Assembly: GCF_000497445.1 (NCBI RefSeq)
Contig: NZ_CM002285.1
Location: forward strand, 4,695,333 to 4,723,869
Direction: 5' to 3'
DNA from: Streptomyces roseochromogenus subsp. oscitans DS 12.976
Lineage (GTDB): Bacteria; Actinomycetota; Actinomycetes; Streptomycetales; Streptomycetaceae
DNA length: 28,537 nucleotides
Positions within the stretch are counted from its first letter, which is position 1; each line of letters begins with the position of its first letter. This document shows positions 6,412 through 21,244 of this stretch, piece by piece. The translations under genes were made by a program, and so were the position numbers. A model generated the notes under the pieces. It had not been told where the DNA came from and did no database searches. It saw only the letters and a list, made by a program, of their open reading frames with translations.

Positions 6412-6574
6412 TGCCCGCAAGTGCCATGGCCGGGGACCACCACGCGGCCCCCGGCCGTCGTATCGGGCCGACGGCCTCACTCCTTGGGCGTGGCCCCTCG
6501 GTTTGCGCTTGGCCCCTCGGTCTTCTCAGTCTTCCCGGTCGTCGACGGCCGGTCCGATGGAAAGGTGATGCACG

Positions 6575-7393: not shown

Positions 7394-7463
7394 CCCCGCT
7401 CACCCGCAATCGTCCGGGATTCCTCCCGAAAAAGAGCACAAAATAAACACAAAGAAAGAAATA

Positions 7464-7503
7464 CCTGCCTCCCGCCCCCGGTCGACCGAGGACAGGAGGC
7501 AGG
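7464..7503. terminator. Hairpin terminator between convergent genes
   Basis: A 9-bp stem (CCTGCCTCC at 7464-7472 with GGAGGCAGG at 7495-7503) encloses a second perfect palindrome, CGGTCGACCG at 7479-7488. It sits between the thioesterase (ending 7393) and the convergent regulator (stop at 7506), so it can serve both strands. On the left an A-rich run (7434-7463) precedes it, which is a U-rich tail for minus-strand transcripts. Confidence 0.75.
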
Positions 7504-7505
7504 GG

Positions 7506-8276
7506 TCAGGCCGAGTACCGGTACGGCAATTCCTCGTCGCGACCGCCACGCCTCAGCAGACCGTCCCGCAGTGCGTGCACGCCGGCTTGGAAGCGGGAAT
7601 TCGCATCGAGTCGGCTCATGAGCTCGGCCACCCGCCGCCGATAGGTGCGGAGCGATATTCCCAGCCGCCGGGCGGCAACCTCGTCCTTGGACCCGCCAGC
7701 CAGTTCATTGACGATCTGCAGATCCGCCTCGTCGAACTCGGACCGGGGGTAGCGCAAATAGCTCACCGGCTCGCTGGCGCCATTCCAGACGGCCGTGAGC
7801 AATGACTGCAGATTCTTGATCACCGGCGGCGCCCAGATCGCCAGGCACTGCTCCTGGGAGAGGCTCACCTGGGTACGCATGAAGGCGACCTGGGAGTCCA
7901 CGATCACGAGTTCCTGCAGCTTGGTGTCGGTGACCCGGACCCGGATGCCGCACTCCGCGGCGGACAGCAGGTAGTCCGGAGTGCACCAGCTGGGGAGGTC
8001 GTCGCAACGATAGAGCTCTCGCACGGCGACCCTCCGCCGTGCCGCGTCACCAACTATTTTCTGAACCGTCCGGCGCCGTTCGCTGGAGTACCATTCCGAT
8101 TTCAGTGCCGATATCATCACGTCGTAGCGGGCCCGCATGACGGACTGCAGCGCGGATATCCGCATCTCGTCCGCATTGTCGAATTGCTCGATGAGCCTGC
8201 CCTGCTCAACTCCCGAAAGTATTTCCGCACGAGTCACCTGATGCGTGCCTGAAGGCGCCAGCAAGAATTCCCCCAT
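7506..8276 (-). CDS. LuxR/HTH-type transcriptional regulator
   Basis: This 256-aa protein is read from ATG 8276; the ribosome site is weak. The C-terminal part (about 180-245) is a helix-turn-helix of LuxR type: FDEADLQIVNELAGGSKDEVAARRL is followed by the recognition segment GISLRTYRRRVAELM and LDANSRFQAGVHA. The N-terminal 170 residues look like the TrmB/sensor-like regulatory part seen in many Streptomyces orphan LuxR regulators, with a VIVDSQVAFMRTQ strand pair. There is no receiver motif and no Walker box, so it is neither a response regulator nor a LAL. It faces the biosynthetic operon convergently and is a probable local regulator. Codon third positions are slightly less GC-rich than in the PKS genes. 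Confidence 0.82.
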   Translation of the reverse strand: MGEFLLAPSGTHQVTRAEILSGVEQGRLIEQFDNADEMRISALQSVMRARYDVMISALKSEWYSSERRRTVQKIVGDAARRRVAVRELYRCDDLPSWCTPDYLLSAAECGIRVRVTDTKLQELVIVDSQVAFMRTQVSLSQEQCLAIWAPPVIKNLQSLLTAVWNGASEPVSYLRYPRSEFDEADLQIVNELAGGSKDEVAARRLGISLRTYRRRVAELMSRLDANSRFQAGVHALRDGLLRRGGRDEELPYRYSA

Positions 8277-8379
8277 GGGCTTGACCCCTGAACTTTCTCC
8301 TTCAAACTATACCGGCCGAGAACTCCACTCAAGCGTGACCTACACCAAATTCGTGCATATACTCGGGGTCGGCAGGGGT

Positions 8380-8811
8380 TCAGCGGCGGGCCGCGGAGAT
8401 GCCTTCAAGCCACTCACGGATCGCGGCTCGCTGCTCCGGCGTGAACGCGGCTTCCAATTCGGCTTCGCAGCGGTCGACGGCCTTGCGGGCAGCGGCCAGA
8501 CGTGTCCGCCCGGACTCGGTGACGAAGATCTGATGGCTGCGCCGGTCGGACGGATTCGTCCGCCGCTCGATCAGCCCCTCCTGCTCGAGCCCGACAAGCA
8601 TCTCGTTGGCGGCCTGCCGGGAGCTCGCCACCTCCCGGGCGATGTCCGACGCCGACATCCCGGGCCGCACCTCGGCCATCAGCAGGGTGGCGTACTGCGA
8701 GGTCGACAGCCCGAACGCCGTGAGCTCCCCGGCGATCGCCGACCTCATGTTCAGCCAGACCCTGCGGACCAGGAAGGTCAGCGAGCCGACTGCGGCCCTG
8801 CGGGGATCCAA
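8380..8811 (-). CDS. MarR family transcriptional regulator
   Basis: The best start is TTG 8811: it lies 7 nt after a strong GAGGAGG, and the frame upstream of it is unrelated transposon debris. This gives 143 aa. The winged-helix pattern of MarR proteins is complete: a dimerisation helix (VRRVWLNMRSAIAGELTAFGLS), ATLLMAEVRPGMSASDIAREV, recognition helix SSRQAANEMLVGLEQEGLIE, wing RRTNPSDRRSHQIFVTESGR, and a C-terminal helix ending in EWLEGISAARR. It should bind a palindromic operator and respond to a small ligand, and may control efflux or the neighbouring cluster. No transporter gene stands next to it, so its target is unknown. It lies 103 bp from the HTH regulator, in the same direction. 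Confidence 0.87.
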   Translation of the reverse strand: MDPRRAAVGSLTFLVRRVWLNMRSAIAGELTAFGLSTSQYATLLMAEVRPGMSASDIAREVASSRQAANEMLVGLEQEGLIERRTNPSDRRSHQIFVTESGRTRLAAARKAVDRCEAELEAAFTPEQRAAIREWLEGISAARR

Positions 8812-8904
8812 CGCTCCGCCTCCTCGGCTAGTGGCAGGTTCTTGACGATGACCCGAGACCACCGGGCTTGTCAAGTTCTTGTCGAACAGAGCAAAGCCCA
8901 CCCG

Positions 8905-9060
8905 CCACCCAGGGGCCCTGGCCTCGATCCCTGACCGGTGACGAAGCCCGAGCCGGGCGATCGGCCGGTCGGGGGTGCTGGTGGCGAGGCAGGTGATCCC
9001 CAGGCCGTCCGCGTCGGCGATCCTCAACTGCACGCCGGGATGAGGTCGTTCCTTGCGAAC
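8905..9060 (-). pseudogene. IS1380-type transposase fragment
   Basis: The minus-strand frame joined upstream of the MarR gene encodes a stretch starting ERPHPGVQLRIADADG, followed by ITCLATSTPDRPIARLGLRHR and IEARAP. This resembles the C-terminal core of IS1380-family DDE transposases (a strand ending in DADG, then a NT(P)-type motif, then LELRHR and the ARxEDRIR region, here broken). Only about 50 residues survive, with no ends visible. The assignment is from remembered family pattern, not from a search. Confidence 0.5.
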
Positions 9061-9087
9061 ACCAAGGTCCGCTTCGGCAATCCCTAC

Positions 9088-9379
9088 CGGAAGGGAGCAC
9101 TCGGGCTCGCGGCATTCGGCGCGGTGAGAACCAAAGACACCTGCCTGCAAGCCCGTTACAAGCGGATCACCACCCGCCGCGGCCCGCTCAGGGCCCTGGT
9201 CGCCGTCGAGCTCGATCACCACCGCGATCTGGCACATGCTCAGCGACAACGTCACCTACCGCGAGCTCGGCGCCTACTTCACCCAGCGCAACCCCCAACG
9301 CGCCACCCGCCGCGCGATCAACGCCCTCAACCAGCACGGCTACACCGTCACCCGCAACCCGCGGGGAGCCACAGCCTGA
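9088..9379 (+). pseudogene. IS110-family transposase C-terminal remnant with frameshift
   Basis: In one frame the + strand reads AAFGAVRTKDTCLQARYKR followed by TTRRGPLRALVAVE. Near base 9213 the coding frame shifts and continues TTAIWHMLSDNVTYRELGAY, QRNPQRATRRAINALNQHGY, to the stop at 9377-9379. This is the C-terminal part of an IS116/IS110/IS902-type transposase (the ARRG...ALVAVEH...IWHML...Y.ELG pattern), broken by a frameshift and missing its N-terminal catalytic DEDD domain. It is a dead element. Together with the IS1380 piece it marks old transposition between the PKS region and the peptide loci. Confidence 0.65.
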
Positions 9380-9672
9380 CCACGCCACGGCCAAGCACCC
9401 GGCAGCCTCTGCGGCCACCGGACGCCCAGCCCAGTCCCGCAATTGCAGCCAGCAGGTCATGCCCGAGCCGGAGCCCAGTTCCTTCGGCAGGTACTTTCAC
9501 CGGATCCCGGTGTGCAGCACGTACACGATCCCGCACAGCACCTCCGCCGGCGCTTGAGGAGGAGTTCGCCGACGAGGTTGGTGAGGCCAGGAGCGTCGGA
9601 GGGATGCCGACCAGGGCGCGTGTGCGTACGAGGTCAGGCGTCAGGATCCCTCCGCTCATCCCGACGTCGGGA

Positions 9673-10245
9673 TCAGGCTCCGTAGCGGGGCAGGACGCCA
9701 GTGTCGAGCGGGGACGGCAGAGGGGCGGGCAGTTCGACCACCTCTCCATACTCTCCATGGACCTGACCGCAGTACTCTCCGCCCTTAGGACGGGTATGCA
9801 GAGTCCAGCGACCGGTACGAGGGTCCAGGACAAGCAGGACGGCGACCCCGGCTCGGGCGTACCAGCCATTCTTGTCGGTGATGTCCTTCGCCTTCTCCGA
9901 CTGGGAGATCACCTCGACAGCCAAGGCGACATCACCAGGGTCGGCCAGCCAGGAATCGTCCTCGTCCCACTCCACGGGCAGGACCGTCAGATCGGGCGTG
10001 GCGTAGTCGTCCGGATCCTCCGGCATGGCGACCGAGGACATCTCGTACGGCGCCAGGCCCCCGGGCAGCCGAGGCTCGATCTGCACCCGCAGGCGCCGGA
10101 TAGTGCCAGCGTGCTTGCCGCGTGGGGTGGGGGACATCACGAGGCTGCCTCCGATGATCTCGACCCGTAGCCCGGTGGAAGCTTCGATGCGTTCGGCGAC
10201 CTCGCGCAGGTTTCCGGGGCGCGGGTGCAGCACGGGAAGGGTCAC
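9673..10245 (-). CDS. Uma2 family restriction-endonuclease-like protein
   Basis: GTG 10245 is preferred because GAGGAGG stands 9 nt upstream, and it gives 190 aa, the usual length. ATG 10263 is the alternative. The family pattern is present: VEIIGGSLVMSPTP near residues 28-41, a central helix, PDLTVLP (84-90), LAVEVISQSEKAKD (108-121) with Glu111, then Lys125, Tyr129 and AGV (132-134), ending in strands VLLVLDPRTGRW. This is the PD-(D/E)XK-like core of DUF820/Uma2. Uma2 genes are very numerous in Streptomyces and often stand alone; their biological role is unclear. It is flanked by IS remnants on one side and non-coding DNA on the other. Confidence 0.85.
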   Translation of the reverse strand: MTLPVLHPRPGNLREVAERIEASTGLRVEIIGGSLVMSPTPRGKHAGTIRRLRVQIEPRLPGGLAPYEMSSVAMPEDPDDYATPDLTVLPVEWDEDDSWLADPGDVALAVEVISQSEKAKDITDKNGWYARAGVAVLLVLDPRTGRWTLHTRPKGGEYCGQVHGEYGEVVELPAPLPSPLDTGVLPRYGA

Positions 10246-10822
10246 AGCTGCCCACCTCCTCATCGGTGGCCGTTCGATCACTACCGTACCGGTCGAGCCC
10301 TCGCCACGGCAGGTAACCAGAGCCGCGCCCAGGCCCGGCGCCGCCATCCGCTACCCGGCAGGCCAGGTAAACCAGCCCGCGAACCTCAAGGAACACGATC
10401 CCCACCTCCGCGTACCCGCCGGGGGGACAGGGGATACCAGGGGAGCCACAGGGGAACACGGATCTCTCGAATCCCTTTAACCACAAGGGATCCCCCACGT
10501 CCATCCCCTGCCGCGTGCGCACTTACCTTCCTGACCTGCGGAAACGCCGGAGAACCGGGACAGACATCCCCGTTTGCATCCTGCTGGATCCCCCTCGATC
10601 CTGCTCGATCTGGCACCCGTGCTGACACGTCAGCACGCCCCACCGATCGTTTGCGCGGCGCAATCTGGTTCCCGCTTGAAGCTGGCAATTTACTGGCCAT
10701 CACTTGGGTAGATCGCGATGCTTAAACGATGCGCTAGAGCAAACTCTGGTGGCGGCGACCGGATTGACCCCGACGAGGCGCTGTCCAGCGGCCTGATGCT
10801 GAAGGCCAGAACCCCCTGCTTC
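10246..10822. other. Gene-free interval with short repeats
   Basis: I see no credible gene here. The stretch holds G-rich direct repeats (GGGGA units at about 10424-10456) and a 7-bp hairpin (ATCCCTT 10471-10477 with AAGGGAT 10485-10491). It also holds three motifs that recur next to the tRNA at 21.1 kb, including the palindrome at 10619-10636. The last 100 bp lie downstream of the lasso B2 gene and show no clear terminator. Confidence 0.5.
10619..10636. promoter_or_regulatory. Palindromic site, possible operator
   Basis: GTGCTGAC and GTCAGCAC form a perfect 8-bp inverted repeat with a 2-nt spacer. A near copy (one mismatch) stands at 21092-21109. The size and symmetry suit a dimeric repressor or recombinase-accessory site; no protein is assigned. 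Confidence 0.4.
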
Positions 10823-11251
10823 TCAGACACGCTGCCTGTGGTGGGGCGGCACGGTCATGATGCGGCGGTACTGGGCGATGGCGGTGTCCTCGTCCACGGG
10901 GACTGCCTCGACCTCGACCCAGGCGTGCGCGGCGAAGGGCTGGGTGCGCACGCCGGTGCACCAGGTGGGCCAGCTCCCCCGCATGCGACACAGCAGTGTG
11001 GTGGCCAGGGAGCGCTGGAGGCAGCCTTCCCCCGCGCAGGCCAGGCTCAGGGATGTGATCTCGGTGCGGGCGCGCTGGGCTTCACCACGGGTGGCGGGGC
11101 GCGCCCCGCGTCGTACCAGGAGCAGGATGGTGCGGATGCGCCCCGGGGGAAGGCGGCTGAGCAGCCAGGCGACGGTGATGGCCAGCCGAATGGGAGGCCG
11201 GCGCCACCATGCGGGACGGTCCGCTGTGGGGAGGGCGGTGTGGACGCTCAT
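10823..11251 (-). CDS. Lasso peptide leader peptidase (B2, transglutaminase-like)
   Basis: This 142-aa protein is the B2 half of the split lasso maturation protease. It cleaves the leader after the Thr-X site and hands the core to the cyclase. The papain/transglutaminase-like Cys is Cys77 in GEGCLQRSLATTLLCR, His109 lies in PFAAHAWVEV, and Asp120 or Asp122 in PVDED is the likely third residue, matching the actinobacterial B2 pattern. An N-terminal hydrophobic, Arg-rich segment (IRLAITVAWLLSRLPPGRIR) is usual. It follows B1 by 36 nt in the same direction; the ribosome site is weak, suggesting coupling. It is the last gene of the cassette, with no D transporter after it. Confidence 0.9.
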   Translation of the reverse strand: MSVHTALPTADRPAWWRRPPIRLAITVAWLLSRLPPGRIRTILLLVRRGARPATRGEAQRARTEITSLSLACAGEGCLQRSLATTLLCRMRGSWPTWCTGVRTQPFAAHAWVEVEAVPVDEDTAIAQYRRIMTVPPHHRQRV

Positions 11252-11287
11252 GCGGAAGCCGTGTTCTGTGTGGAGAGGGATCGTGGA

Positions 11288-11548
11288 TCAGGCGAGAGAG
11301 CCAAGACCGCGCCGGGCCAGGTCGGCCAGAAACGCGTTGACGTCGGCTGCGGCTTGGGCAGGCGTGGCATCAGTGCCTGCCGTGAGCCGGTGGACCGCCT
11401 CCTCCTGGCTCGCTCCGTTCAGGAGGGCGGTCAGGGTGGCGGAGCCCGTCCCGTTCAGCTCGAAATAGCCGCCCGTGCGCTCGTCGAGGATGACCATGCC
11501 GGTGTCGGTGGTGACGGCGGTGACATGTCGGTGCAGCCGAAAGGCCAT
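11288..11548 (-). CDS. Lasso peptide RiPP recognition element (B1, PqqD-like)
   Basis: This 86-aa protein starts at ATG 11548, just after the cyclase stop at 11550-11552, so the two are coupled. A longer frame exists upstream but only repeats cyclase DNA. The sequence has the PqqD/RRE fold pattern: strands around RHVTAVTTDTGMVILDERTGGYFELNGTG, then helices (SATLTALLNGASQEEAVHRL, AQAAADVNAFLADLARRGLG). B1 binds the leader, mainly its YxxP and GxF residues, and delivers it to B2. The order C-B1-B2 and the length match actinobacterial lasso clusters. Confidence 0.92.
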   Translation of the reverse strand: MAFRLHRHVTAVTTDTGMVILDERTGGYFELNGTGSATLTALLNGASQEEAVHRLTAGTDATPAQAAADVNAFLADLARRGLGSLA

Positions 11549-11549
11549 G

Positions 11550-13388
11550 TCATGTGCTCCTGGTGGACCGTACGGTGCTTCTGGACGGGGTGGCGGCAGG
11601 CAGGGTGAGGCGTCCGTGGTGCAGCCAGTGCTCCACCACAAGGGTGTCTTCGAGGTCGGCGGAGATACGCGGTACCGGAGTGTGCAGCGCCGCGCCCAGG
11701 GCTGCGGCGTCCAGCAGACCGGCCTGGGCCAGTCGGGAGCGCTCCACGAGCTGGTTCAGGGCGGCCCGCTGTTCACGCAAGCCCGCGTAGAAGTCGGTGT
11801 CGGTGCTGCCCTTCGTCGCGCGGGCGAGCAGGTGACCGGGCATCAGGCCGTGCATGGCCCGGGCCAGGAGTGGTTTGTAGGCGAAGGGTGTCCCACGCTC
11901 GTGAGTACGCACCGCGAGACAGGCTTCCACCACGCGGTCGTCGAGGAACGGCAGCCCCATCCACGGCTGGTCGTACTCCTGGCGCATCAGCCGGTAGAGC
12001 TGGGAAACGGCCCGCAGCCGGTGCAGGGTCTGGTGCTGTCCCCGGTCGGCGGCAAGGGGCAGCGCGGTCGTCGCAGCTTCCTCCAGGAGGTCGGCGACCA
12101 GCAGGGCTGCCCGGCGCGTGGCCCATGGTGCCATGCGCACCGGCGGTCCCCATCCCAACGGCACGTGGTGGGAAGGCTCGGTCGGCGGGCCACCGCGCAG
12201 GCGGCGAGCCTGGTCGCGCAGCCACTGCGGGTAGGAGCGTCGGTCGACGAGCCCTCGTAGCGCGAGGCTCAAGGGCCAGCGGCGGACCGAACGGTGGCCG
12301 CGCAGGTGACGGACGGCGAGAAGCGGGTGGGCCGGCAACAGGTCGCCGAGGTAACCGGGCGGGGTCTGGAGAACCTCGTCGCCGCCGTGGCCCGCGAGTT
12401 GAAGGACGACTCCGTGCCCGCGGTAGCGAGCGGCGGTCGCGTCGAACACGGCCCTGCCTCGCAGCACCCCGGACGGAGCGTCCGCCGGGCTGCCCGGCTC
12501 GCCCAGGTTCTCGTACTGGCCAGGCAGTTCGTCGTCGGCCAGCGACAGCGCCACCGTGTCCGGCAGATGGCTTCGGGCCAGGTTGGCCCAGTGTGTGTCG
12601 TCGTTGGCCGGATCCCGGAACGCCAAGGTCATCGTGTGCAAGGAGGCGCCGGCGGCGCTCGCGAGGAACGCCAGCGCGGTGGAGTCCATGCCTCCGGACA
12701 GGTCACAGCCCACCGCAGATTCCGGTGCCTGGGCGATCCGCAGGGCCACGGCCTCGGCGAGAGCGGCTCGCAGCGCCGCCGCGCCGGTCTCCACCGGCCG
12801 GTCGGGAAGAGGCGGTGACCACCAGGGCCGGTGCGCGGATCCGCCGTGCGCGCCGACCGTCAGCGCGTCGCCCGGCGGGACGGCGAAGACGCCCTGCCAG
12901 GCGGTGAGACCGTCCAGCAGATGTGGGGGCCCGCCGGTGATGAGTCGTACGGCCAGCCATCGCTCGTCCAGGTCGGCGCCCGACAGGTCCGCCAGGATGT
13001 CCGCGCGGTCCGCCGCGACCGTGATGCCGTGCATACGCGCCGTGTAGACGCGACGCAGACCGGAAGCCGTGCCCCGAAGCCGGAACCGGCCCGGTCCCGA
13101 GACGGCCACATGCACGCTTCCCGCCGACGCTGAAGGCCCCGGAACGCCTTGGTCAGTGCTCAGGGGCGGCAGGAGACGGGCAAGGGATGCCACGTCTGCA
13201 CCTGCGTGACCGATGACGGCCACCCTCAGGTCGCCCGTCGACAGGACCTGGCAGTGGCCCGTCGGCACCCGGCCGACCAACCAGGGTCTGCCGGACGCGT
13301 GCCGGGCCAGGACCGACCCTTCACACCGGAGCTCTTCCAGCACCCGGAGGGCGGCAGGACAGTCGGGTACGGCGACGAACCACTGCAC
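11550..13388 (-). CDS. Lasso cyclase (asparagine-synthetase-like, C protein)
   Basis: This protein adenylates the side-chain carboxylate of the ring Glu and closes the macrolactam with the N-terminal Gly while the tail is threaded. GTG 13388 is preferred: AGTGAGG lies about 6 nt upstream and it gives an MQWFVAVPD start. GTG 13400 is the longer option, adding 4 residues. The product is 612 aa. The N-terminal glutaminase-like half lacks the Cys2 nucleophile, as expected. The synthetase half has the PP-loop CDLSGGMDSTAL (about 229-240), LAGHGGDEVLQTPPGYLG in the middle, and a C-terminal part with MRQEYDQPWMGLPFLDDRVVEA and YKPLLARAMHGLMP. It begins 12 nt after the precursor stop and ends one base before B1. 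Confidence 0.93.
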   Translation of the reverse strand: MQWFVAVPDCPAALRVLEELRCEGSVLARHASGRPWLVGRVPTGHCQVLSTGDLRVAVIGHAGADVASLARLLPPLSTDQGVPGPSASAGSVHVAVSGPGRFRLRGTASGLRRVYTARMHGITVAADRADILADLSGADLDERWLAVRLITGGPPHLLDGLTAWQGVFAVPPGDALTVGAHGGSAHRPWWSPPLPDRPVETGAAALRAALAEAVALRIAQAPESAVGCDLSGGMDSTALAFLASAAGASLHTMTLAFRDPANDDTHWANLARSHLPDTVALSLADDELPGQYENLGEPGSPADAPSGVLRGRAVFDATAARYRGHGVVLQLAGHGGDEVLQTPPGYLGDLLPAHPLLAVRHLRGHRSVRRWPLSLALRGLVDRRSYPQWLRDQARRLRGGPPTEPSHHVPLGWGPPVRMAPWATRRAALLVADLLEEAATTALPLAADRGQHQTLHRLRAVSQLYRLMRQEYDQPWMGLPFLDDRVVEACLAVRTHERGTPFAYKPLLARAMHGLMPGHLLARATKGSTDTDFYAGLREQRAALNQLVERSRLAQAGLLDAAALGAALHTPVPRISADLEDTLVVEHWLHHGRLTLPAATPSRSTVRSTRST

Positions 13389-13412
13389 AGGAGACCTCAC
13401 TTCAGACGGGCA

Positions 13413-13574
13413 TCACGCTTCAAAACGGCCGATACCGGCTTCCCTGTACTTCCCGTAACCACCGCGCGTGTCGTGTGCGAACCTCCCGGCCTCCGCGACC
13501 ATCGGCGGCTCGTAGGCGACCGGCTCCTCGACAGCCACCCGCTCCTCGTTCGTGAGCACCTTCTGGATTTCCAT
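13413..13574 (-). CDS. Lasso peptide precursor, predicted core GGYGKYREAGIGRFEA
   Basis: This 53-aa peptide is read from ATG 13574, with GGAGG 7 nt upstream; another ATG at 13580 lies too close to that site. The leader carries the complete recognition motif: Tyr21, Pro24, Val26 (usually Leu), Gly30, Phe32 and Thr36. Thr36 is the -2 residue, so cleavage is expected after Arg37. The core of 16 residues starts with Gly1 and has Glu at position 8, giving a predicted 8-residue ring (GGYGKYRE) and tail AGIGRFEA. It has no Cys, so it would be a class II lasso peptide. Hand calculation gives a monoisotopic mass of about 1711.84 for the cyclised core. The stop lies 12 nt before the cyclase. I do not recognise the core among lasso peptides I know. 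Confidence 0.9.
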   Translation of the reverse strand: MEIQKVLTNEERVAVEEPVAYEPPMVAEAGRFAHDTRGGYGKYREAGIGRFEA

Positions 13575-13952
13575 GCCCATCCCTCCTCAGGAATCAGGAC
13601 GGGGCGCATCCCCGCCGCTGGAATGAATACCTGCCGCCATCTTCCTCAAACCCCCTGAACAGACGCTGATTTCAGCCAACATCCATCAATTCTTGCAGTT
13701 CGAACCCGAGTCCAAATAGGCACGCATCAAGGCCTGTTGACCAATTATTGAGCATGCCCGCTCAGGTGAGGTAATCACCACCGTCGATCACTTTCCACTC
13801 CCAAGAGTGAAGCCTTCCCGCATCACGGTCCTACGGTGCGCCAGTCGGCTAGCCTGGCACACATCTCCCTTTGGCCATACGGGAGTTCGGCGCACCGGAG
13901 CGCATCGCGCCCTTCAAGGATGAATCACCGCAACACCAGAGAGAGAGCCGCC
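13575..13952. promoter_or_regulatory. Divergent intergenic region of lasso cassette and DUF5132 gene
   Basis: These 378 bp separate the minus-strand lasso precursor from the plus-strand small protein gene and must hold promoters for both. The segment 13660-13760 is distinctly A/T-richer than the surroundings. I do not see a -35/-10 pair that I would defend, and there is no gene. Confidence 0.45.
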
Positions 13953-14237
13953 ATGCCTCCTGTCGTTCCCCCGTTCCTGCTAGGGCTTGTCTTTGCTCCC
14001 CTGGCCAAGCGTCTGGTGAAGCCGCTGGTCCGCGGCACCGTCAAGACGTCGATGAGCCTTGTCATGGAGTTGAAGAAGGCAGCGCACGAGGCTGGTGAGG
14101 AACTGCACGACATGACCGCGGAGGTCGCTGCCGAGTTGATCGGCGCCGAACTCCGGGAAGAGGAAACAGCCGTCGGCAAGCCGGTCAAGCCTCGGAGCCC
14201 TGCCGGCTCGGGTACTGCGGCCGGAAAGGCCCGCTAA
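13953..14237 (+). CDS. DUF5132-like small protein
   Basis: This 94-aa protein starts at ATG 13953 after GAGAGAG. The N-terminus PPVVPPFLLGLVFAPLAKRLVKPLVRGTVKTS is a hydrophobic/basic amphipathic segment. It is followed by a charged helix (LVMELKKAAHEAGEELHDMTAEVAAELIGAEL) and a Lys/Pro-rich tail. I recall this pattern as DUF5132 of actinomycetes, which I associate with HMA-domain proteins and metal transporters. An HMA-like domain also occurs in the ABC gene at 18244. It may be a membrane-associated accessory or chaperone-like protein, but the function is unknown. Codon use is ordinary for the window. Confidence 0.6.
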   Translation: MPPVVPPFLLGLVFAPLAKRLVKPLVRGTVKTSMSLVMELKKAAHEAGEELHDMTAEVAAELIGAELREEETAVGKPVKPRSPAGSGTAAGKAR

Positions 14238-14257: not shown

Positions 14258-14590
14258 ATGACGATTCAGCATCCTGGGGACGACGGCATGGTCAGATTTT
14301 TCTCGACCGCGCCGCCGTCCCCATTCGTCCTGCCCCAGACAAGGAAATGCGTGACTGAATACGGTGACGTTTTGGCCGACATCACGACCACGACTGACAT
14401 CATGGAAGAGAGCGACTCCGCTACGAATGTGCTGTACAGGGCGGAGCTGGTGCTCAACAACGGCTCATACACTCTCGTCGTGCGGGATCTCGTACACGGC
14501 ACGCTGCGAATGACCGGTGTGCCCAGGAGGATGGTGGCAAAGTTCCCCGCCTACCTTTCGATGCTCAATCTTCAGCACGTGGATGAATGA
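14258..14590 (+). CDS. Hypothetical protein, 110 aa
   Basis: The ATG at 14258 follows GGAGCACGGA and lies 20 bp after the DUF5132-like gene. Third codon positions are less GC-rich than in most genes here (codons such as AGA, TTT, AAA and ATT occur), so it may be recently acquired. The C-terminal 75 residues look ordered: VTEYGDVLADITTTTDIME, then LYRAELVLNNGSYTLVVRDL, then VPRRMVAKFPAYLSMLNLQ. There is no signal peptide and no membrane helix. I do not recognise a family. Its 3' end overlaps the convergent isoprenoid-synthase-like gene by 19 bp. Confidence 0.55.
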   Translation: MTIQHPGDDGMVRFFSTAPPSPFVLPQTRKCVTEYGDVLADITTTTDIMEESDSATNVLYRAELVLNNGSYTLVVRDLVHGTLRMTGVPRRMVAKFPAYLSMLNLQHVDE

Positions 14591-15558
14591 ACCGAACTGC
14601 CTTCGGCGGCCGGCTCGGGGACAGGATCCGGGACGGCGGGCAGCCGGAGCCGCTCGCCTCGCTCCAGCCGCCACCGGATCCAGGTGAGCAGCACCGGCCT
14701 GGGCAGCAGGGTGTAGACGCGGGTCGGACTGCGCTTGACGGCGAGGGCGCGCAGCGGGCGCGGGCGGAGCAGGAAGACCTGGGCGAACCGGACCAGGGAC
14801 CGGCGGTCGGCGGCGGCGAGGTCGCACAGCAGGTCGTCGCAGAGCCGCCGCCAGACTTCGTGGAGGCGGGCGCGGGCGGCTTCGACGCCGACGGCCCAGA
14901 CACACATGCGGTAGAAGTTGCAGGAGTCGTCGGCCACGTCCTTGGCATAGCCGACAACGTCACTGATCAGTTCTCCCATCGCGTGCATGTGTCCCGCGAG
15001 CCGGTCGAACGACTCGTCCCCGGGCAGCCCGGCGAGGCGTCGGCCGAACCCCGTCATGATCCGCACGTCGGACGACCGCCCGTGACAGGCACGCACGAGA
15101 TCGTCCACGCTGTACTGAGCGCGGCGGCTCATGGTCTCGGTCTCCCAGCGGGCGTACTCCTCCAGCGCGCGCAGATCGGCGAGTGCCTCGGCGGTGTCAC
15201 AGCCGTATCCGCGCAGCACCTCCTCGATGCCGTCGCGCCAGGCGGTGCCCGCCGGAGGGCCGTCCGCCTGCTCCCGCTCGACGGCGAGATCGCCGACGTA
15301 GACCAGCGCCTCCAGATTGAGCAGCGGGGGCCAGTAGTAGTCCAGCGCGTCGTGCGGACAGCCGAGGAGACGCAGGGTGTGGACGCAGTGCAGCGTGACG
15401 GCACCGGCCTTGAGCTGGTGCCGGAGGGTGACGGCGGTGCGCTCCCAGGCCATGGGGGGATCGGCGGACAAGGGCCGCTCCCAGGCGCGCTCGGCGGCGC
15501 CCCGAGCACCGCGCGACACCAGCGGACGGCGCGCCTTCGCACTCTTCGTGGCGGTCAT
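14572..15558 (-). CDS. Divergent class I isoprenoid synthase/terpene synthase-like protein
   Basis: This 328-aa, largely alpha-helical protein is read from ATG 15558 with GAGGAAGG upstream. The helix pattern follows class I terpene synthases: LLNLEALVYVGDLAVERE (80-97) at the place of the Asp-rich motif, then TETMSRRAQYSVDDLVRAC with GRSSDV (161-165), then GELISDVVGYAKDVADDSCN (195-214) at the place of the NSE triad, then VEAARARLHEVWRRLCDDL. The metal-binding motifs are degenerate: GDLAVE instead of DDxxE, and SDxxGxxxD instead of NDxxSxxxE. It may be a cyclase with altered metal binding, a prenyltransferase acting on a peptide (compare ComQ), or a non-catalytic relative. The C-terminal 60 residues are Arg/Pro-rich. 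It is divergent from the 32-aa peptide gene. Confidence 0.5.
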   Translation of the reverse strand: MTATKSAKARRPLVSRGARGAAERAWERPLSADPPMAWERTAVTLRHQLKAGAVTLHCVHTLRLLGCPHDALDYYWPPLLNLEALVYVGDLAVEREQADGPPAGTAWRDGIEEVLRGYGCDTAEALADLRALEEYARWETETMSRRAQYSVDDLVRACHGRSSDVRIMTGFGRRLAGLPGDESFDRLAGHMHAMGELISDVVGYAKDVADDSCNFYRMCVWAVGVEAARARLHEVWRRLCDDLLCDLAAADRRSLVRFAQVFLLRPRPLRALAVKRSPTRVYTLLPRPVLLTWIRWRLERGERLRLPAVPDPVPEPAAEGSSVHSSTC

Positions 15559-15789
15559 ACGAGCCTTCCTCGGCGACGGGGTGAACGGGCGGCCGGCGCG
15601 GACACTCCGCCGCCAGGACGACGGACACCGTAATCACCGCAACAGCGCCAACTGGCATAGAACATAGGCATGTTCACCACATCGAGTGGCGTGCACACCC
15701 TGCGAGTTTTTGCCGCCGAGCGCATGGAAATGCCCCGTGCGGTGCCAGTCCGACAGGGGCCGGCACCGCCTTCGAAAGGAGTACCAATC
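15559..15789. promoter_or_regulatory. Divergent promoter region
   Basis: This interval lies between the isoprenoid-synthase-like gene (minus) and the 32-aa peptide gene (plus). The section 15627-15675 is A/T-richer and is the likeliest promoter site. An in-frame ATG at 15670 would extend the peptide to 72 aa, but the strong AAAGGAG stands right before 15790, so I treat 15670-15789 as leader DNA. Confidence 0.4.
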
Positions 15790-15888
15790 ATGTTCCTTCC
15801 CGACTACGGCAACCCCCGCGACCCCGGTTCCGATGACGCTCCCGCTCTGCGCTGGCAGGCGGAGGTCTACGAGGGCGACGAGGCCTGA
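15790..15888 (+). CDS. 32-aa acidic peptide, candidate secreted peptide/RiPP precursor
   Basis: The ATG at 15790 has a near-perfect AAAGGAG 8 nt upstream, the best ribosome site in the neighbourhood, and the frame ends at TGA 15886-15888. The peptide begins MFLPDYGNP and ends ALRWQAEVYEGDEA. It has four prolines, all in the first 18 residues, a single Trp (residue 22) and a strongly acidic overall composition. It has no Cys. Cleavage after Pro18 by the neighbouring prolyl oligopeptidase would release the 14-residue ALRWQAEVYEGDEA. A strong hairpin follows 40 bp later, a layout usual for precursor genes made in excess over processing genes. It is not similar to any precursor family I know. An N-terminally extended 72-aa form is possible. 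Confidence 0.6.
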   Translation: MFLPDYGNPRDPGSDDAPALRWQAEVYEGDEA

Positions 15889-15928
15889 GCGGCACCTGCC
15901 CCTCCGGGACACCCCGTGTGAACCGAGG

Positions 15929-15963
15929 AACGGCGGGGCCGGCGCCTACCTGGCCCCGCCGTT
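15929..15963 (+). terminator. Perfect 12-bp hairpin, probable attenuator after the peptide gene
   Basis: AACGGCGGGGCC (15929-15940) pairs perfectly with GGCCCCGCCGTT (15952-15963) around an 11-nt loop. It is followed by a short pyrimidine run (CTTCACATCC) rather than a clean U tract, so partial read-through into the oligopeptidase gene is likely. Confidence 0.7.
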
Positions 15964-16004
15964 CTTCACATCCGTACCCCCTCCCGCGCGCCCGAGGAAG
16001 CACC

Positions 16005-18170
16005 GTGTTGCCAGAGACCACCAGCGTCCACCCGCCCGCCGCCCGCGAGAACCTCGTCGAGACGGTGCACGGGCGGCCGGTTGCCGACCCTTACCGGTGG
16101 CTGGAGGACCTGACCAGCGACGCCTCGCGCGCGTGGGCCGAGGCCCAGGACACCCTGTTCGCCGCGCACCGGACGGCCTGGCCGGACCGGGACGCATGGG
16201 ACGAGCGGCTGAAGGCCCTGTCGGTGACCCGTCGGGTGTCCGCGCCGGTCTGGCGCGGCGGACGGCACTTCACCGAACGGCATCTGCCCGGCCGCGACCA
16301 GGCCGTGCTGTACGCCACCGGGGCGGACGGCACCGAGCGGTTCGTGGTGGACGCGGGCACACTGGCGCCGCAGGGCCGGGTACGGCTGGCCGGGTGGCGG
16401 CCCTCCTGGGAAGGCGACCTGGTGGCCTGTCAGTTCGCGGTGGACGGGGCCGACATCACCCGGCTGGTGGTGTACGCGGCCGACGGCGGGGGAGCCGTCG
16501 ATGAGCCCGTGGAGGGGCTGCGGCACTCGCCGGTGGCATGGCTGCCCGGCGGGCAGGCCTTCTACTACGTGGGCCCCGCGGCCGAGGGGCCGGACGGCAT
16601 GCTGCGGGTCAAACTGCACCGCCTGGGGCGGCCCGCCGGGGAGGATGAGGAGGTGTTCGGTGAACAGGCCGACGGATTCGCGTACTTCGGGCTGACCATC
16701 ACGCCCGACGGCGATCGGCTGGTCGTCTCCGTGGCCCGCGGAATCGCCCATCACAACGACCTGTGGCTGGCCGAGACCCCGGTGAACGACCCCGCGCGGC
16801 CGACGTGGCAGCGCTTGGTGGACGGCACGGAGACCAAGGCGCTCGCCTCGATCCGGCTGCACCGGGACGGCGGCGGACGCCTCCACACCGACCGGGGCGC
16901 GCCCCGCGGGAGGATCCTCGTCACGGACCGCACAGCGGCGCGCGGTGACGGCTGGCGGGAACTGGTACCGCAGGACCCGGACGCCGCTCTCGACGACAGT
17001 GTCCTGCTGGACGGGCTCGCTCTCGCGGAACCACTGCTGCTGGTGTGCTGGAGTCGGGCTGCCACCAGCCGGATCACCGTGCACCGGGCCGCGGACGGGA
17101 AACGCATCGGGGAGGTCCCGCTGCCCGGCAGCGGAACGGTCCGGGCGCTGCGGGGGCGTCCCGAAGGCGGCCACGAGGCGTGGTTCACGTACACCGACTT
17201 CGGCAAGCCACCGGCTGTCTTCGTCTTCGACGCGGTCAGCGGGCGGGTCGCACCGTGGCCCGGGCGCGGTGCGCCCCCCGGGCCCCGGGCGTCCGTGGAG
17301 CCGACCGGGGCACCCGGCTCCACGGCGGAGCTGCTCACCAGTCAGGTCCGGTACGAGGCCGACGACGGCACGCCGATCCTGCTCTTCCTCCTCAGCCGCG
17401 CCGACCAGCCGCTCAACCCGCCCGCCGGGCCGCCCCGGCCCGCCCTGCTCACCGCCTACGGCGGCTTCGGCGTCCCGATGCGCCCCGCCCACACCCCTTC
17501 CGCGCGAGCCTGGGCCCAAGCCGGCGGCGTGTACGCGGTGGCCTGCGTACGGGGCGGCGGCGAGCACGGCAACGCCTGGCACGCCGCCGGTCGTGGCGCC
17601 GCCAAGTCCCGTGCCGTGGACGACCTCAACGACGCCGCCCGGTATCTGATCGACCGGGGCATCACCGCGCCGGACCGGCTGGCCGCGACCGGCCAGTCCA
17701 ACGGCGGACTGCTGGTGACCGCCGCCCTGACCCGCCGCCCTGATCTGTACGCCGCCGTCGCCGCCATCGGGCCACTGTGCGACATGGCCCGCTACGAGCG
17801 CTTCGGCATCGGTCACACCTGGACAGCGGAGTACGGGACCGCCGTCGACCCCGGGCAGCTCGACGCACTCCTCGCCTACTCGCCGTATCACCAGGTACGT
17901 CCCGGCAGCCGCTACCCGGCCGTCCTGCTCTGCGGCGCCGACACCGACCAGCGCACCGGAGCCCAGCACGTGCGCAAGATGTGCGCGGCGTTGCAGCACG
18001 CCACAGCCTCCCCCGCTCCGGTCCTCATGCGCCGTACCACGACCGGCGGACACGCACACGCGTCAGCAGGAACGGCACACGATCTCACCGCAGACGTCAC
18101 CGCCTTCCTCGCCCACCACACCGGACTGCCCGCGCCGACGTCCGCGACCGCCGACGGATCGCCGCGTTGA
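16005..18170 (+). CDS. Prolyl oligopeptidase family serine peptidase (S9)
   Basis: The start is GTG 16005 after AGGAAG, giving 721 aa. The N-terminus ETVHGRPVADPYRWLEDLTS is the PREP hallmark, followed by a seven-bladed-propeller-sized region (about 70-420) and the alpha/beta hydrolase domain. The catalytic residues are visible: Ser565 in ATGQSNGG, Asp648 in GADTDQR, His683 in TTGGHAHAS, with AYGGFGVP upstream. Such enzymes cut after Pro in peptides shorter than about 30 residues. No signal peptide is present, so it acts in the cytosol. Its place between a 32-aa Pro-containing peptide and an exporter suggests leader removal before export, as with class III lanthipeptide POPs. A general housekeeping role is the alternative. 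Lasso isopeptidases are also S9 relatives, but this one has the canonical PREP N-terminus. Confidence 0.93.
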   Translation: MLPETTSVHPPAARENLVETVHGRPVADPYRWLEDLTSDASRAWAEAQDTLFAAHRTAWPDRDAWDERLKALSVTRRVSAPVWRGGRHFTERHLPGRDQAVLYATGADGTERFVVDAGTLAPQGRVRLAGWRPSWEGDLVACQFAVDGADITRLVVYAADGGGAVDEPVEGLRHSPVAWLPGGQAFYYVGPAAEGPDGMLRVKLHRLGRPAGEDEEVFGEQADGFAYFGLTITPDGDRLVVSVARGIAHHNDLWLAETPVNDPARPTWQRLVDGTETKALASIRLHRDGGGRLHTDRGAPRGRILVTDRTAARGDGWRELVPQDPDAALDDSVLLDGLALAEPLLLVCWSRAATSRITVHRAADGKRIGEVPLPGSGTVRALRGRPEGGHEAWFTYTDFGKPPAVFVFDAVSGRVAPWPGRGAPPGPRASVEPTGAPGSTAELLTSQVRYEADDGTPILLFLLSRADQPLNPPAGPPRPALLTAYGGFGVPMRPAHTPSARAWAQAGGVYAVACVRGGGEHGNAWHAAGRGAAKSRAVDDLNDAARYLIDRGITAPDRLAATGQSNGGLLVTAALTRRPDLYAAVAAIGPLCDMARYERFGIGHTWTAEYGTAVDPGQLDALLAYSPYHQVRPGSRYPAVLLCGADTDQRTGAQHVRKMCAALQHATASPAPVLMRRTTTGGHAHASAGTAHDLTADVTAFLAHHTGLPAPTSATADGSPR

Positions 18171-18243
18171 TCCCTGAGCGAGTCGCCCAGCCCGCCCACC
18201 CCGCCCGAGGCGGAGAGAAGCAGAGAGAACCGGTGATGCCCGC

Positions 18244-20655
18244 GTGTCCCGCTACGTCACCCCGCCCGCAGAACCGCACGGCCATCAGCACCCGGTCCGC
18301 GGTCCGCTGAGGCTCCGGTCGGCCGTGCCCGGGCGGCAGCGGTGGGAAGCTCCCGTCCTCGCCGGGCGCCCCCGGCTCGCCGGGCTGCTCACCGCCGTAC
18401 TGGGCAAAAGCCCCGGTGTCACCGGCGTCCGAGCCAGCGCGGTGACCGGCAGCGTGCTCGTACACCACGATCCGGCGCTCGGTGCGGCGGATATCGGCGC
18501 ACAGCTCCGGGCGGTCCTGGACGACCTTCTGCGACAGGTGGGGACGCAGAGCCAGGTCCCCCAACCGTCGGCCGAGCCAGTCCGGACCCGTGAACAGGCT
18601 GGTGATCCGGCCGGGGCTCATCAGGCCACCCGGTCCGGTGTCCGCCCCCGCATGCTGGTGGCCGGCGGTGCCGCGGCCTCCCTCGCCCTGGGCGGCTCCG
18701 GGCTGCTCCTGGGCCCCTGGGTGGCTCTGGGTGCGGTCGGCGCCGCCACCACGCTGCTGATCCGCCGGGCCTGGCATGAGACGAGCGACCCACGAAAGCT
18801 GCCCGCCTCACCGCTGAAGCCCGCCGAGGCGGCCCGTCCCGTCGGGAACGCCGGCGCACCTCCGCTGCTGCGCCTGGCCAGGAGGCACCGGCGCCGGATC
18901 GGCCGCGCCGCAGGACTGTCGGCCGCCGCTGAACTCGCCGAACTGGGCGTCTTCACCAGCCTCGGCGCGCTGCCGCTACTCCTCGCCCGCGGCAGCAGCC
19001 CGGTGCTCACCGCGCTGGGCGTGACCGGAACCCTCCCCCAGCTGGGCGTGCTCACCGCCGTCGCCGCGCTGGCGAAGCTCATCCAGGCGGCCCTGTCCTA
19101 CCGGGCCGACCTCGCCTGGCGCACCCTCGGTCAGGACGTGGAACACGAGTTGCGCAGCGAGGTGTATCCCCATGTACAACGGCTGCCCCTGCGGGACCTG
19201 GAGGGCGAGCGGACCACGCGGATCGCCGGTGTGCTGAGCGCGGACATCCCACACGTCGGCGCCTTCCTCGCCCACGGCCCCGGCGAACTGGTCCAGCTCG
19301 CCACCTGTTTCCTGGTGATGGCGCCCGCCTTTCTCCTCCTCGCCCCCCGGCTCGCCTGGGCCGCCTTCCTCCCCGTCCCGGTCATCACCTGGCTCTCCCT
19401 GCGGCACCACTCCCGCTCCGGGCGCGCCTACGCGGCCGTGGGCGACCGCAGGGTCCGGCTGAACAGCCAGGTCATCAACACCCTGGAAGGCAGTGCCACC
19501 GTCAAGAGCTTCTGCACCGAGGCCGAGGAGGCCGCCCGTGTGGAGCGGCTGAGCGACGCGTGCCGCAACGACACCCGGCTCAACGACCGGGAGACGGCTC
19601 GGCACATCCAGACCGTCGGCACGTGTGCCAGCCTCTCCCTGCTCGGTACCGGACTGCTCGCCGCCCGCGACGTGTTCCGGGGCACTCTGTCCCTGAGTTC
19701 CTTCAACACCCTGCTCGCCCTGCCCAGCCCGGTGCTGTATCGGCTCACCCGGATCGGCACGACCTTGGAGCAGTACCAGCACACACTGGCCGCGCTCGAC
19801 CGTGTCGAACACCTGCGGAACCTGCCGACCGAGCCGGACGAGGGCGGACGCCCTCTGGATCCCGGACGGGTCGAGGGTGAGCTGGTACTCGACGGGGTCA
19901 CCTTCGCGTACCCGGGGCGCCCCCCTGTGCTGCGGGACACCCGGTTGCGATTCGTGTCCGGCCGTACGACCGCCATCGTGGGTGCGACCGGGGCCGGCAA
20001 GACCACCATCGCCAAACTACTCATGCGGTTCCAGGACCCGGTGGCGGGCCGGATCCTGCTCGACGGCCAGGACATCCGGGAGCTACGCCTGCAGGACCTG
20101 CGGCGCTGCATCGGTTTCGTCGCCCAGGACGCCTTCCTGTTCGACGGCACGATCGCCGAGAACATCGCCTACGGCACCCCGCACGCGGAGCACGCAGCCA
20201 TCGTCGGTGCCGCAGGCATCGCGCAGGCGTCCGGGTTCATCGAAGCACTGCCGCAGGGGTACGACACGGTGGTGGGCGAGCGGGGAGCTGCACTGTCCGG
20301 CGGTCAGCGTCAGCGCATCGCGCTGGCCCGCACCATCCTCAAGGACCCTCCGGTCGTCATCCTCGACGAAGCGACGTCGGCCGTCGACAACGACACCGAA
20401 GCCGCCATCCAGCACGCCCTCCGGAACTTCACTGCCGGCCGCACCACCGTGGTCATCGCCCACCGGCTCTCCACCATCCGGCACGCCGACTGGATTCACG
20501 TCATGAACGAGAACGGGACCATGGTGGAGGAGGGAGCCCACCAGGACCTTCTCACGCAAGACGGGCAGTACGCGTCGCTGTGGCGACTACAGACCGGAAT
20601 GCCTGAGCGGGACCCCGAGGATGCCGGGAGAGTACTGGTCACGGCCACACATTGA
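18244..20655 (+). CDS. ABC exporter half-transporter with N-terminal HMA-like domain
   Basis: This 803-aa protein starts at GTG 18244, 73 bp after the peptidase. Residues about 20-95 (LRLRSAVPGRQRWEAPVLAG, then GVTGVRASAVTGSVLVHHDP) match an HMA_2-type heavy-metal-associated-like fold but without CxxC. A linker and a hydrophobic pair (about 138-175) follow, then the six-helix type I exporter core (about 215-510) and the nucleotide-binding domain: Walker A GATGAGKTT (580-588), signature LSGGQ (684-688), Walker B VVILDE with Asp708 and Glu709, and H-loop His740 in IAHRLS. There is no C39 peptidase domain, so the cargo must be pre-trimmed, which suits the upstream peptidase. Cargo may be the 32-aa gene product and/or the lasso peptide. 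Confidence 0.9.
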   Translation: MSRYVTPPAEPHGHQHPVRGPLRLRSAVPGRQRWEAPVLAGRPRLAGLLTAVLGKSPGVTGVRASAVTGSVLVHHDPALGAADIGAQLRAVLDDLLRQVGTQSQVPQPSAEPVRTREQAGDPAGAHQATRSGVRPRMLVAGGAAASLALGGSGLLLGPWVALGAVGAATTLLIRRAWHETSDPRKLPASPLKPAEAARPVGNAGAPPLLRLARRHRRRIGRAAGLSAAAELAELGVFTSLGALPLLLARGSSPVLTALGVTGTLPQLGVLTAVAALAKLIQAALSYRADLAWRTLGQDVEHELRSEVYPHVQRLPLRDLEGERTTRIAGVLSADIPHVGAFLAHGPGELVQLATCFLVMAPAFLLLAPRLAWAAFLPVPVITWLSLRHHSRSGRAYAAVGDRRVRLNSQVINTLEGSATVKSFCTEAEEAARVERLSDACRNDTRLNDRETARHIQTVGTCASLSLLGTGLLAARDVFRGTLSLSSFNTLLALPSPVLYRLTRIGTTLEQYQHTLAALDRVEHLRNLPTEPDEGGRPLDPGRVEGELVLDGVTFAYPGRPPVLRDTRLRFVSGRTTAIVGATGAGKTTIAKLLMRFQDPVAGRILLDGQDIRELRLQDLRRCIGFVAQDAFLFDGTIAENIAYGTPHAEHAAIVGAAGIAQASGFIEALPQGYDTVVGERGAALSGGQRQRIALARTILKDPPVVILDEATSAVDNDTEAAIQHALRNFTAGRTTVVIAHRLSTIRHADWIHVMNENGTMVEEGAHQDLLTQDGQYASLWRLQTGMPERDPEDAGRVLVTATH

Positions 20656-21161: not shown

Positions 21162-21171
21162 TATCTGATTG

Positions 21172-21244
21172 TGGAGCCTAGGGGAGTCGAACCCCTGACA
21201 TCCGCCATGCAAAGACGGCGCTCTACCAACTGAGCTAAGGCCCC
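21172..21244 (-). tRNA. tRNA-Ala (anticodon TGC)
   Basis: The minus strand folds into a full cloverleaf of 73 nt: acceptor GGGGCCT with AGGCTCC (one G-U pair), D arm TTAGCTCAGTTGGTAGAGC, anticodon loop with TTTGCAT giving the UGC anticodon, and T arm GGGGTTCGACTCCCC. The discriminator is A and CCA is not encoded. The accessory DNA lies on its 3' side, the side where tRNA-targeting integrases act. Confidence 0.97.

Follow-up and report, generated by a model that had tools for sequence, protein, structure and literature searches.

A synthase, a short peptide and a prolyl oligopeptidase shared by two Streptomyces species hint at a possible new route to isoprenoid-bearing peptides

Introduction

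Is a 32-residue peptide of Streptomyces roseochromogenus subsp. oscitans DS 12.976, encoded between genes for an isoprenoid-synthase-like protein and a prolyl oligopeptidase (POP), the precursor of a prenylated peptide? The locus lies in a stretch of 28,537 nucleotides, hereafter the window (G000:C1:4695333-4723869), within the 9.78-Mb, two-contig genome of the source strain (G000). An initial annotation had grouped four of its genes into one peptide system, namely the synthase, the peptide, the POP and an HMA-domain ATP-binding cassette (ABC) exporter, and all four are present at, or very near, where it had placed them. We computed gene conservation, co-occurrence and predicted fold class, and from these we infer the transfer reaction, the residue modified, the sequence of events, export and what the product does. 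The locus and its relatives suggest that peptides may acquire isoprenoid groups by a route not yet described. The features at the centre of the analysis are:

15790-15888, + strand: 32-aa precursor-like peptide MFLPDYGNPRDPGSDDAPALRWQAEVYEGDEA; open reading frame and ribosome site seen directly, homologue in Streptomyces oryzae
15775-15782, + strand: ribosome-binding site AAAGGAGT, from the sequence
15925-15967, + strand: strong hairpin between peptide and POP; inverted repeat in the window and in S. oryzae
14572-15558, - strand: 328-aa synthase, putative peptide prenyltransferase; predicted class I isoprenoid-synthase fold
about 16005-18170, + strand: POP, putative leader protease (PF02897 and PF00326)
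18244-20655, + strand: HMA-domain ABC exporter, candidate exporter with a weak link to the peptide (HMA_2, ABC_membrane, ABC_tran)

Results

A conserved short open reading frame

The ATG of the peptide is preceded at 8 nt by AAAGGAGT, which scored 5/6 in a Shine-Dalgarno scan. The ribosome site is good, though not strictly the best in the region, as the initial annotation had called it: the same scan gave 6/6 for an 18-aa frame that uses an internal start of the 110-aa gene. A homologous open reading frame occupies the same place in S. oryzae S16-07 (tblastn E 5.7e-12 in 20 kb). Its peptide, MLLPDFDGPRAPALGDVRNPASDEAPALRWHAEVYEGDQG (ending DEAPALRWHAEVYEGDQG), is encoded at L007 10888-11010, between homologues of the synthase and the POP. 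The two peptides have the motif PALRWxAEVYEGD in common, and Pro18, Trp22 and Tyr27 are all kept in S. oryzae; conservation of the Trp and the Pro in a homologue beside the synthase had been proposed at the outset as a check on the idea.

The two open reading frames differ in length by 24 nt, in frame (8 residues, in the N-terminal half). Over the 32 aligned codons, differences at codon positions 1, 2 and 3 number 4, 5 and 12 (one-sided binomial p 0.02). The NG86 method gives dN 0.17 against dS 0.68 for all 32 codons, and 0.12 against 0.82 for the 20 C-terminal ones. Nucleotide identity between the window and S. oryzae is 0.78-0.81 within the open reading frame, 0.51-0.52 upstream of it and 0.33 just downstream. 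The 32-mer, taken in the correct frame, matched no Pfam or NCBIfam family. Of 317 Streptomycetaceae genomes searched with a degenerate core pattern, derived from those same two peptides and with up to two mismatches allowed, two had a match, G000 and S. oryzae (G146), each a single one with 0 mismatches; the reversed control pattern had 0 among the matches listed for these genomes.

The peptide gene is followed by a hairpin of -39.5 kcal/mol (z -5.4) in the window copy. It has no U-tract, and a simple terminator scan gives no call there; it is likely to be an attenuator that keeps the peptide transcript abundant. Codon-level conservation and the distribution of the core pattern argue against a spurious open reading frame. 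Judged by its sequence the 32-aa frame is a real gene, and we are confident that its product is a precursor peptide. The locus has one feature of ribosomally synthesized and post-translationally modified peptides (RiPPs), a short conserved precursor gene beside a candidate modifying enzyme.

The cassette recurs in Streptomyces oryzae

In S. oryzae S16-07 both the synthase and the POP are 75% identical to those of the window, and the layout is the same, with the peptide between them. The idea had been held open to refutation by loss of the small open reading frame where the other genes persist; S. oryzae keeps the peptide with synthase and POP, a result from the one genome that keeps both, at whose locus the ABC gene is absent. 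No other close relative of the synthase appeared in a scan of genome contigs. Further searches for relatives, centred on G000 and G146, added nothing new, the listed portions of their genome sets coinciding except for the central genome, and a tblastn search of plasmids with the synthase gave no match. The genome samples of the several searches overlap, and their counts are not additive; the synthase-profile searches scored 5 to 14 candidate stretches per genome (7 in one search).

Within ~10 kb either side of the S. oryzae synthase there was no match to lasso, YcaO, LanKC or radical S-adenosylmethionine (SAM) queries, nor was any such gene recognised in the list of genes around it. The predicted core of the peptide has no Ser, Thr or Cys. 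With no other RiPP enzyme recognised nearby and a core of this kind, no candidate modifier besides the synthase is in view at that locus, and we reject lanthipeptide or YcaO chemistry on the 32-mer on the same two grounds. The only isoprenoid gene recognised near it encodes an isopentenyl diphosphate (IPP) isomerase, ~8 kb from the synthase.

The synthase has a predicted class I isoprenoid-synthase fold

The 328-aa synthase has no match in Pfam or NCBIfam at E <= 1. Its AlphaFold2 model (pLDDT 79.8, pTM 0.79) has the all-alpha fold of class I isoprenoid synthases, and the best 50 matches in each fold search all belong to that class, which bears out the label that the gene had received from its sequence. 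When the protein was aligned with its relatives, D90-x3-E94, R161, R166, D200, D207 and N214 were invariant in 7 homologues. The first Asp-rich motif has an invariant D-x-x-x-E (7/7; D90, E94) and lacks the second D of DDxxD/E. The second metal motif reads xDxx[S/T/G]xxxD, with D200 and D207 invariant in the 7 and a variable first position, which is N in four distant homologues. Among the sequences of the PDB, searched with the synthase profile (hmmsearch), there was no true relative (3 matches, E 0.51-0.88). As we read it here, the synthase belongs to a so far uncharacterised family that transfers isoprenoids to RiPPs, and we lean slightly towards the view that it modifies this peptide with an isoprenoid.

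The oligopeptidase and the predicted core

The POP deserves its name: it carries PF02897 and PF00326, and its closest solved relative is the prolyl endopeptidase 2bkl (E 1.6e-110). The beta-propeller and S9 domain place it in S9A, and the triad positions align to 2bkl, at residues that we take to be the Ser, Asp and His of the triad. At E <= 1e-60 a POP was found in 2 of the 7 synthase-homologue genomes, G000 (two copies) and G146, exactly those with the peptide, and not in the other 5.

We predict a leader of residues 1-18 and a core of residues 19-32 (ALRWQAEVYEGDEA), with the core boundary placed by inference. Pro18 and Trp22 are conserved in the alignment, in keeping with the initial annotation, and a cut after Pro18 would give a 14-mer in both species, ALRWQAEVYEGDEA in the window and ALRWHAEVYEGDQG in S. 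oryzae. That the POP cuts there is, on these sequences, fairly probable. A part for POP enzymes in RiPP maturation is described in excerpts of the literature (PMC12951456), as for FlaP in lanthipeptides (PMC10885120).

Relatives of the synthase near other RiPP genes

Homologues of the synthase in other genomes stand beside RiPP genes of several classes. In G485 the homologue and a lasso operon point away from each other, the operon having genes for precursor, cyclase, RiPP recognition element (RRE), B2 and ABC; one or more IS4/5-family transposase genes (L018, 8615-9453) adjoin the two. The homologue in G601 stands beside a YcaO gene and a 47-aa peptide (L019 7830-9407, - strand). This peptide, MGNGTYSGGQYDHSRSLTKDEQELTGDELQQLAEAGLSVTADEADAN, precedes the YcaO gene, has GGGAGG before its ATG, and consists of a short N-terminal and an acidic C-terminal part, a layout that recalls bottromycin precursors. 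A class III lanthipeptide cluster houses the homologue of G101 (L008 3674-19911). Its LanKC scores 840 bits against a cut-off of 575 (NF038151), and its two short precursors, identical to each other and of class III type, end in GSTISNSC and fall just below the cut-offs of class III precursor models (21.9 vs 22). With its ketosynthase, reductases, AMP ligase with an aldehyde-dehydrogenase-like part, thiamine diphosphate enzyme, IPP isomerase and ABC genes, this cluster resembles a lipolanthine-like hybrid of lipid and lanthipeptide, to which an isoprenoid could be added. The homologue in G614 lies beside DUF5132 and HMA-ABC genes, with an AMP ligase and a pyridoxal phosphate-dependent decarboxylase. 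A lasso, YcaO or LanKC gene is present at 4/7 core loci (the window, counted at 28.5 kb, enters with its lasso operon) against 0/40 evenly spaced 20-kb stretches from two genomes (G000 and G585).

Four distant loci (L022, L023, L024 and L029), not among the 7 core loci, gave one weak partial match only to the RiPP queries: at L023 (G206) 9028-9375 (- strand), adjoining a distant synthase-family gene, there is a partial lasso-cyclase match (39% over 123 aa, E 3e-10) that we take for a fragment or an asparagine-synthase relative. Two of the distant loci have a different content. In G581 (L022 3900-10484) a short-chain prenyl diphosphate synthase, above the cut-off of the farnesyl diphosphate synthase model and below that of the geranylgeranyl diphosphate model, accompanies a 513-aa Pyr4-like cyclase gene, which the distant homologue follows in a separate reading frame. 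Genes alike in sequence to this prenyl diphosphate synthase and cyclase are present in G206 (L023 8820-16312). Both clusters also hold a Rieske-like and another gene (recognised by eye) and a distant synthase-family protein, and by content we read them as an undescribed terpenoid or meroterpenoid cluster. In the other two, G585 and G731, neither a prenyl diphosphate synthase nor a Pyr4-like cyclase was recognised.

A possible pathway and its rivals

Taken together, we give about an even chance to a locus that makes a prenylated, POP-released RiPP from the 32-mer. The 32-aa peptide would be the ribosomal precursor, and the synthase would bind an allylic diphosphate through its conserved acidic metal sites. 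It would then transfer the isoprenoid to an aromatic side chain in the C-terminal half of the peptide, most likely Trp22, with Tyr27 as the alternative. The POP would next cut after Pro18 and free a modified peptide of 14 residues (ALRWQAEVYEGDEA, or ALRWHAEVYEGDQG in S. oryzae), which might be exported through the adjacent HMA-ABC protein, in the source strain only. We favour Trp22 because the characterised trans-isoprenyl diphosphate synthase (trans-IDS)-like prenyltransferases target Trp, as excerpts of two papers state (PMC13290415; PMC10853753); as the site in this very peptide it is a tentative choice.

A number of observations weigh against this reading. The synthase-peptide-POP cassette was found in two species only, and YN00, applied to the 20 C-terminal codons only, gave dN 0.20 and dS 0.21, with no purifying signal. 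The best Foldseek E was 1.9e-3 and whole-chain TM scores to the query were 0.33-0.47, so that the match is to the superfamily and not to a prenyltransferase; terpene cyclases are among the top-ranked fold matches. The second metal motif (the second Asp-rich motif or NSE) is non-canonical. Gln at -3 of D200, a spacing inferred from Q216 and D219 of Ord1 in structure entry titles, occurs in 0/7 rows, and G601 alone has Gln at -1. The loci of G614 and G552 showed no RiPP signature enzyme, with nothing recognised around the homologue in G552, and the candidate precursors beside the homologues of G101, G485 and G601 have no Trp. For the comparison of 4/7 with 0/40 loci the queries were taken from the case loci, so that the cases match by construction and only the 0/40, from two genomes, is independent; we treat the comparison as an indication only.

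The synthase might instead be an ordinary, if divergent, terpene cyclase whose product is a free terpene, with peptide and POP a separate pair travelling along (its product being, for example, an unmodified 14-mer). We think this unlikely. The genes for synthase and peptide are divergent neighbours in S. oryzae, where no isoprenoid gene but the IPP isomerase was recognised, and relatives of the synthase stand in lasso, YcaO and LanKC loci. The lasso operon ~1 kb away in the window raises another thought, that the synthase tailors the neighbouring lasso peptide (predicted core GGYGKYREAGIGRFEA) and that the HMA-ABC protein is the lasso exporter: no ABC gene follows the B2 gene of that operon, and the homologue of G485 is directly divergent to a lasso operon. 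This is improbable, for S. oryzae keeps synthase, peptide and POP with no lasso cyclase or B2 match within ~10 kb.

Two further rivals keep the peptide as the substrate or the precursor and differ over which part is used. Tyr27 is as conserved as Trp22 in the two peptides, and Tyr without Trp is found both in the lasso core predicted for G485 and in the 47-aa peptide of G601, while the G101 class III precursors contain neither residue; the synthase might thus prenylate Tyr27, or the N-terminus that the POP cut would expose, in place of Trp22. Prenylation there is rather unlikely, given that all characterised trans-IDS-like prenyltransferases target Trp (as excerpted from PMC13290415) and that the neighbouring peptides of the relatives are not certain to be substrates. 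It could also be argued that the conserved C-terminal half serves for recognition, as a follower, and that the N-terminal half gives rise to the product, or that the POP degrades the rest. The 20 C-terminal residues are indeed the most conserved part, and S. oryzae retains every Pro that the window peptide has, which would allow the POP to cut at several. The N-terminal half, on the other hand, is short and differs by 8 residues between the species, and recognition part and core can both be conserved where two species make the same product; we hold this explanation to be very improbable.

Comparison with known systems

The ComQ/ComX system of Bacillus resembles the one proposed here in its small peptide gene, its enzyme of class I isoprenoid-synthase fold and its internal Trp. 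It belongs to another phylum, and ComQ itself would match the polyprenyl synthase family, whereas the window synthase matches 0 Pfam families. A POP stands at the window locus, whereas ComX is cut by unknown proteases according to an excerpt of PMC10853753. PalQ/PalX of Paenibacillus, the P domain of ChrPC and Ord1 are alike in fold, and Ord1 (9v4h) ranks 6 in the Foldseek search with the synthase model; PalQ and ChrPC also have a RiPP setting. PalX has a nitrile hydratase-like (NHLP) leader and a C-terminal Trp (excerpt of PMC10853753), while the window peptide has no leader family match and an internal Trp. An enzyme of isoprenoid-synthase fold acts on Trp in the cases of ComQ, PalQ, Ord1 and the P domain of ChrPC, according to the parts of these papers that we draw on (PMC13290415; PMC10853753), and by analogy the window system may work as ComQX, PalQX and ChrPC do. 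Trp prenyltransferases are described as having a conserved Gln shortly before the second Asp motif (excerpt of PMC13290415); by alignment the window synthase lacks it, unlike the PalQ, ChrPC and Ord1 group. The enzyme had at first been likened to ComQ; as a recognisable ComQ-type trans-IDS it fails, with no polyprenyl-synthase Pfam match and no upstream Gln at the expected place, and membership in the ComQ/PalQ enzyme group is not supported.

Cyanobactins and the lanthipeptide MppE (modified by MppC) likewise carry isoprenoids on Trp and other RiPP side chains, but their prenyltransferases have the alpha-beta-beta-alpha fold, another fold than that of the window synthase. Prenylation of cyanobactins and of a lanthipeptide is described, and that of lasso peptides is said to be reported, in an excerpt of PMC12715784. 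Class III lanthipeptides with FlaP-type POPs share with this locus a POP as leader protease (here a putative one) cutting after Pro; they use LanKC, which the window locus lacks, and the predicted core here has no Ser, Thr or Cys. RamC_N and LANC queries had no match in the window or in L009, and no lasso cyclase or B2 match was found around the S. oryzae homologue of the 32-mer; the lasso operon of the window has its own precursor, apart from the 32-mer. NzsG and CqsB4 of Streptomyces are phytoene-synthase-like and prenylate indole-containing carbazoles (excerpt of PMC7466098), a small-molecule acceptor unlike the peptide proposed for the window system.

The HMA-ABC exporter lies outside the conserved unit

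The exporter was correctly described as an HMA-ABC protein without a peptidase domain: it matches HMA_2 (27.1 bits, below the Pfam cut-off of 30), ABC_membrane and ABC_tran, and no peptidase is among the 18 listed families. Its inclusion as a conserved part of the system is not supported. HMA-ABC homologues at E <= 1e-100 occur in 4/7 genomes, but in S. oryzae they lie on contigs C89 and C24 and the cassette on C199; absent from the S. oryzae locus, the gene is rejected as a core part and does not belong to the minimal unit. DUF5132 directly precedes HMA-ABC in G614 (L020 10475-13168) and on C89 of S. oryzae (L038 5394-8079). In the window the DUF5132 gene (13953-14237) is near the HMA-ABC gene (18244-20655), not directly before it, and synthase, peptide and POP look inserted into the pair. 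Around the HMA-ABC gene of G552 the 14 kb examined yielded no DUF5132, and the contig ends just upstream of the copy on C24. Since an HMA-ABC gene is near 2/7 core loci (the window and G614), the exporter may have been recruited; that it exports the peptide product is doubtful. We found no paper in the open-access literature that names DUF5132.

What the gene set would mean

We found no paper describing this gene set among titles and abstract openings of the open-access literature. Peptide prenylation on Trp by terpene-type enzymes is described for ComQ, PalQ and ChrPC (excerpt of PMC13290415). It is possible, though we hold it with some reserve, that the Streptomyces synthase family comprises undescribed RiPP prenyltransferases across lasso, YcaO and class III loci, and that in the window and S. 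oryzae the synthase, a peptide of 32-40 aa and the POP make up a minimal RiPP type that is itself new, and whose acceptor is perhaps not Trp. If so, terpene-type enzymes would prenylate peptides in Streptomyces too, through an independent sequence family that is common to unrelated RiPP classes. A three-gene minimal system could be rebuilt in a laboratory strain; it would open another way to search for lipidated peptides and might provide a new tool for peptide lipidation.

Neighbouring genes and a second POP locus

The remaining features of the neighbourhood are context:

13953-14237, + strand: DUF5132 protein (PF17195)
14258-14590, + strand: 110-aa protein, family unassigned; across 58 aa it is 40% identical to a protein that adjoins HMA-ABC in G614
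10823-13580, - strand: separate complete lasso peptide operon (Pfam/NCBIfam matches), with the next four genes as its parts
13413-13580, - strand: lasso precursor
11550-13400, - strand: lasso cyclase
11288-11548, - strand: PqqD-type RRE
10823-11251, - strand: B2 protease

The lasso operon, which adjoins the four-gene locus on its left, had gone unmentioned in the initial annotation. The DUF5132 and 110-aa genes sit between the lasso precursor and the synthase. The best model for the lasso cyclase of the window is albusnodin/ikarugamycin, at 241 bits, below its cut-off of 300. Just right of the locus a tRNA-Ala(TGC) gene (21171-21244, - strand) is a possible integration landmark.

The second POP of G000 lies elsewhere in the genome (L044, G000:C1:2236000-2252000, at 6050-10947); it is 44% identical, with one TAG in the matched stretch. 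Near it are a radical SAM protein (by Pfam; below the cut-offs of NCBIfam RiPP models), a transporter that by eye is MFS-like, and a divergently encoded peptide of 49 aa, acidic and rich in Pro, that ends GETPWCIGDMTAH; a second POP-matured RiPP is possible there.

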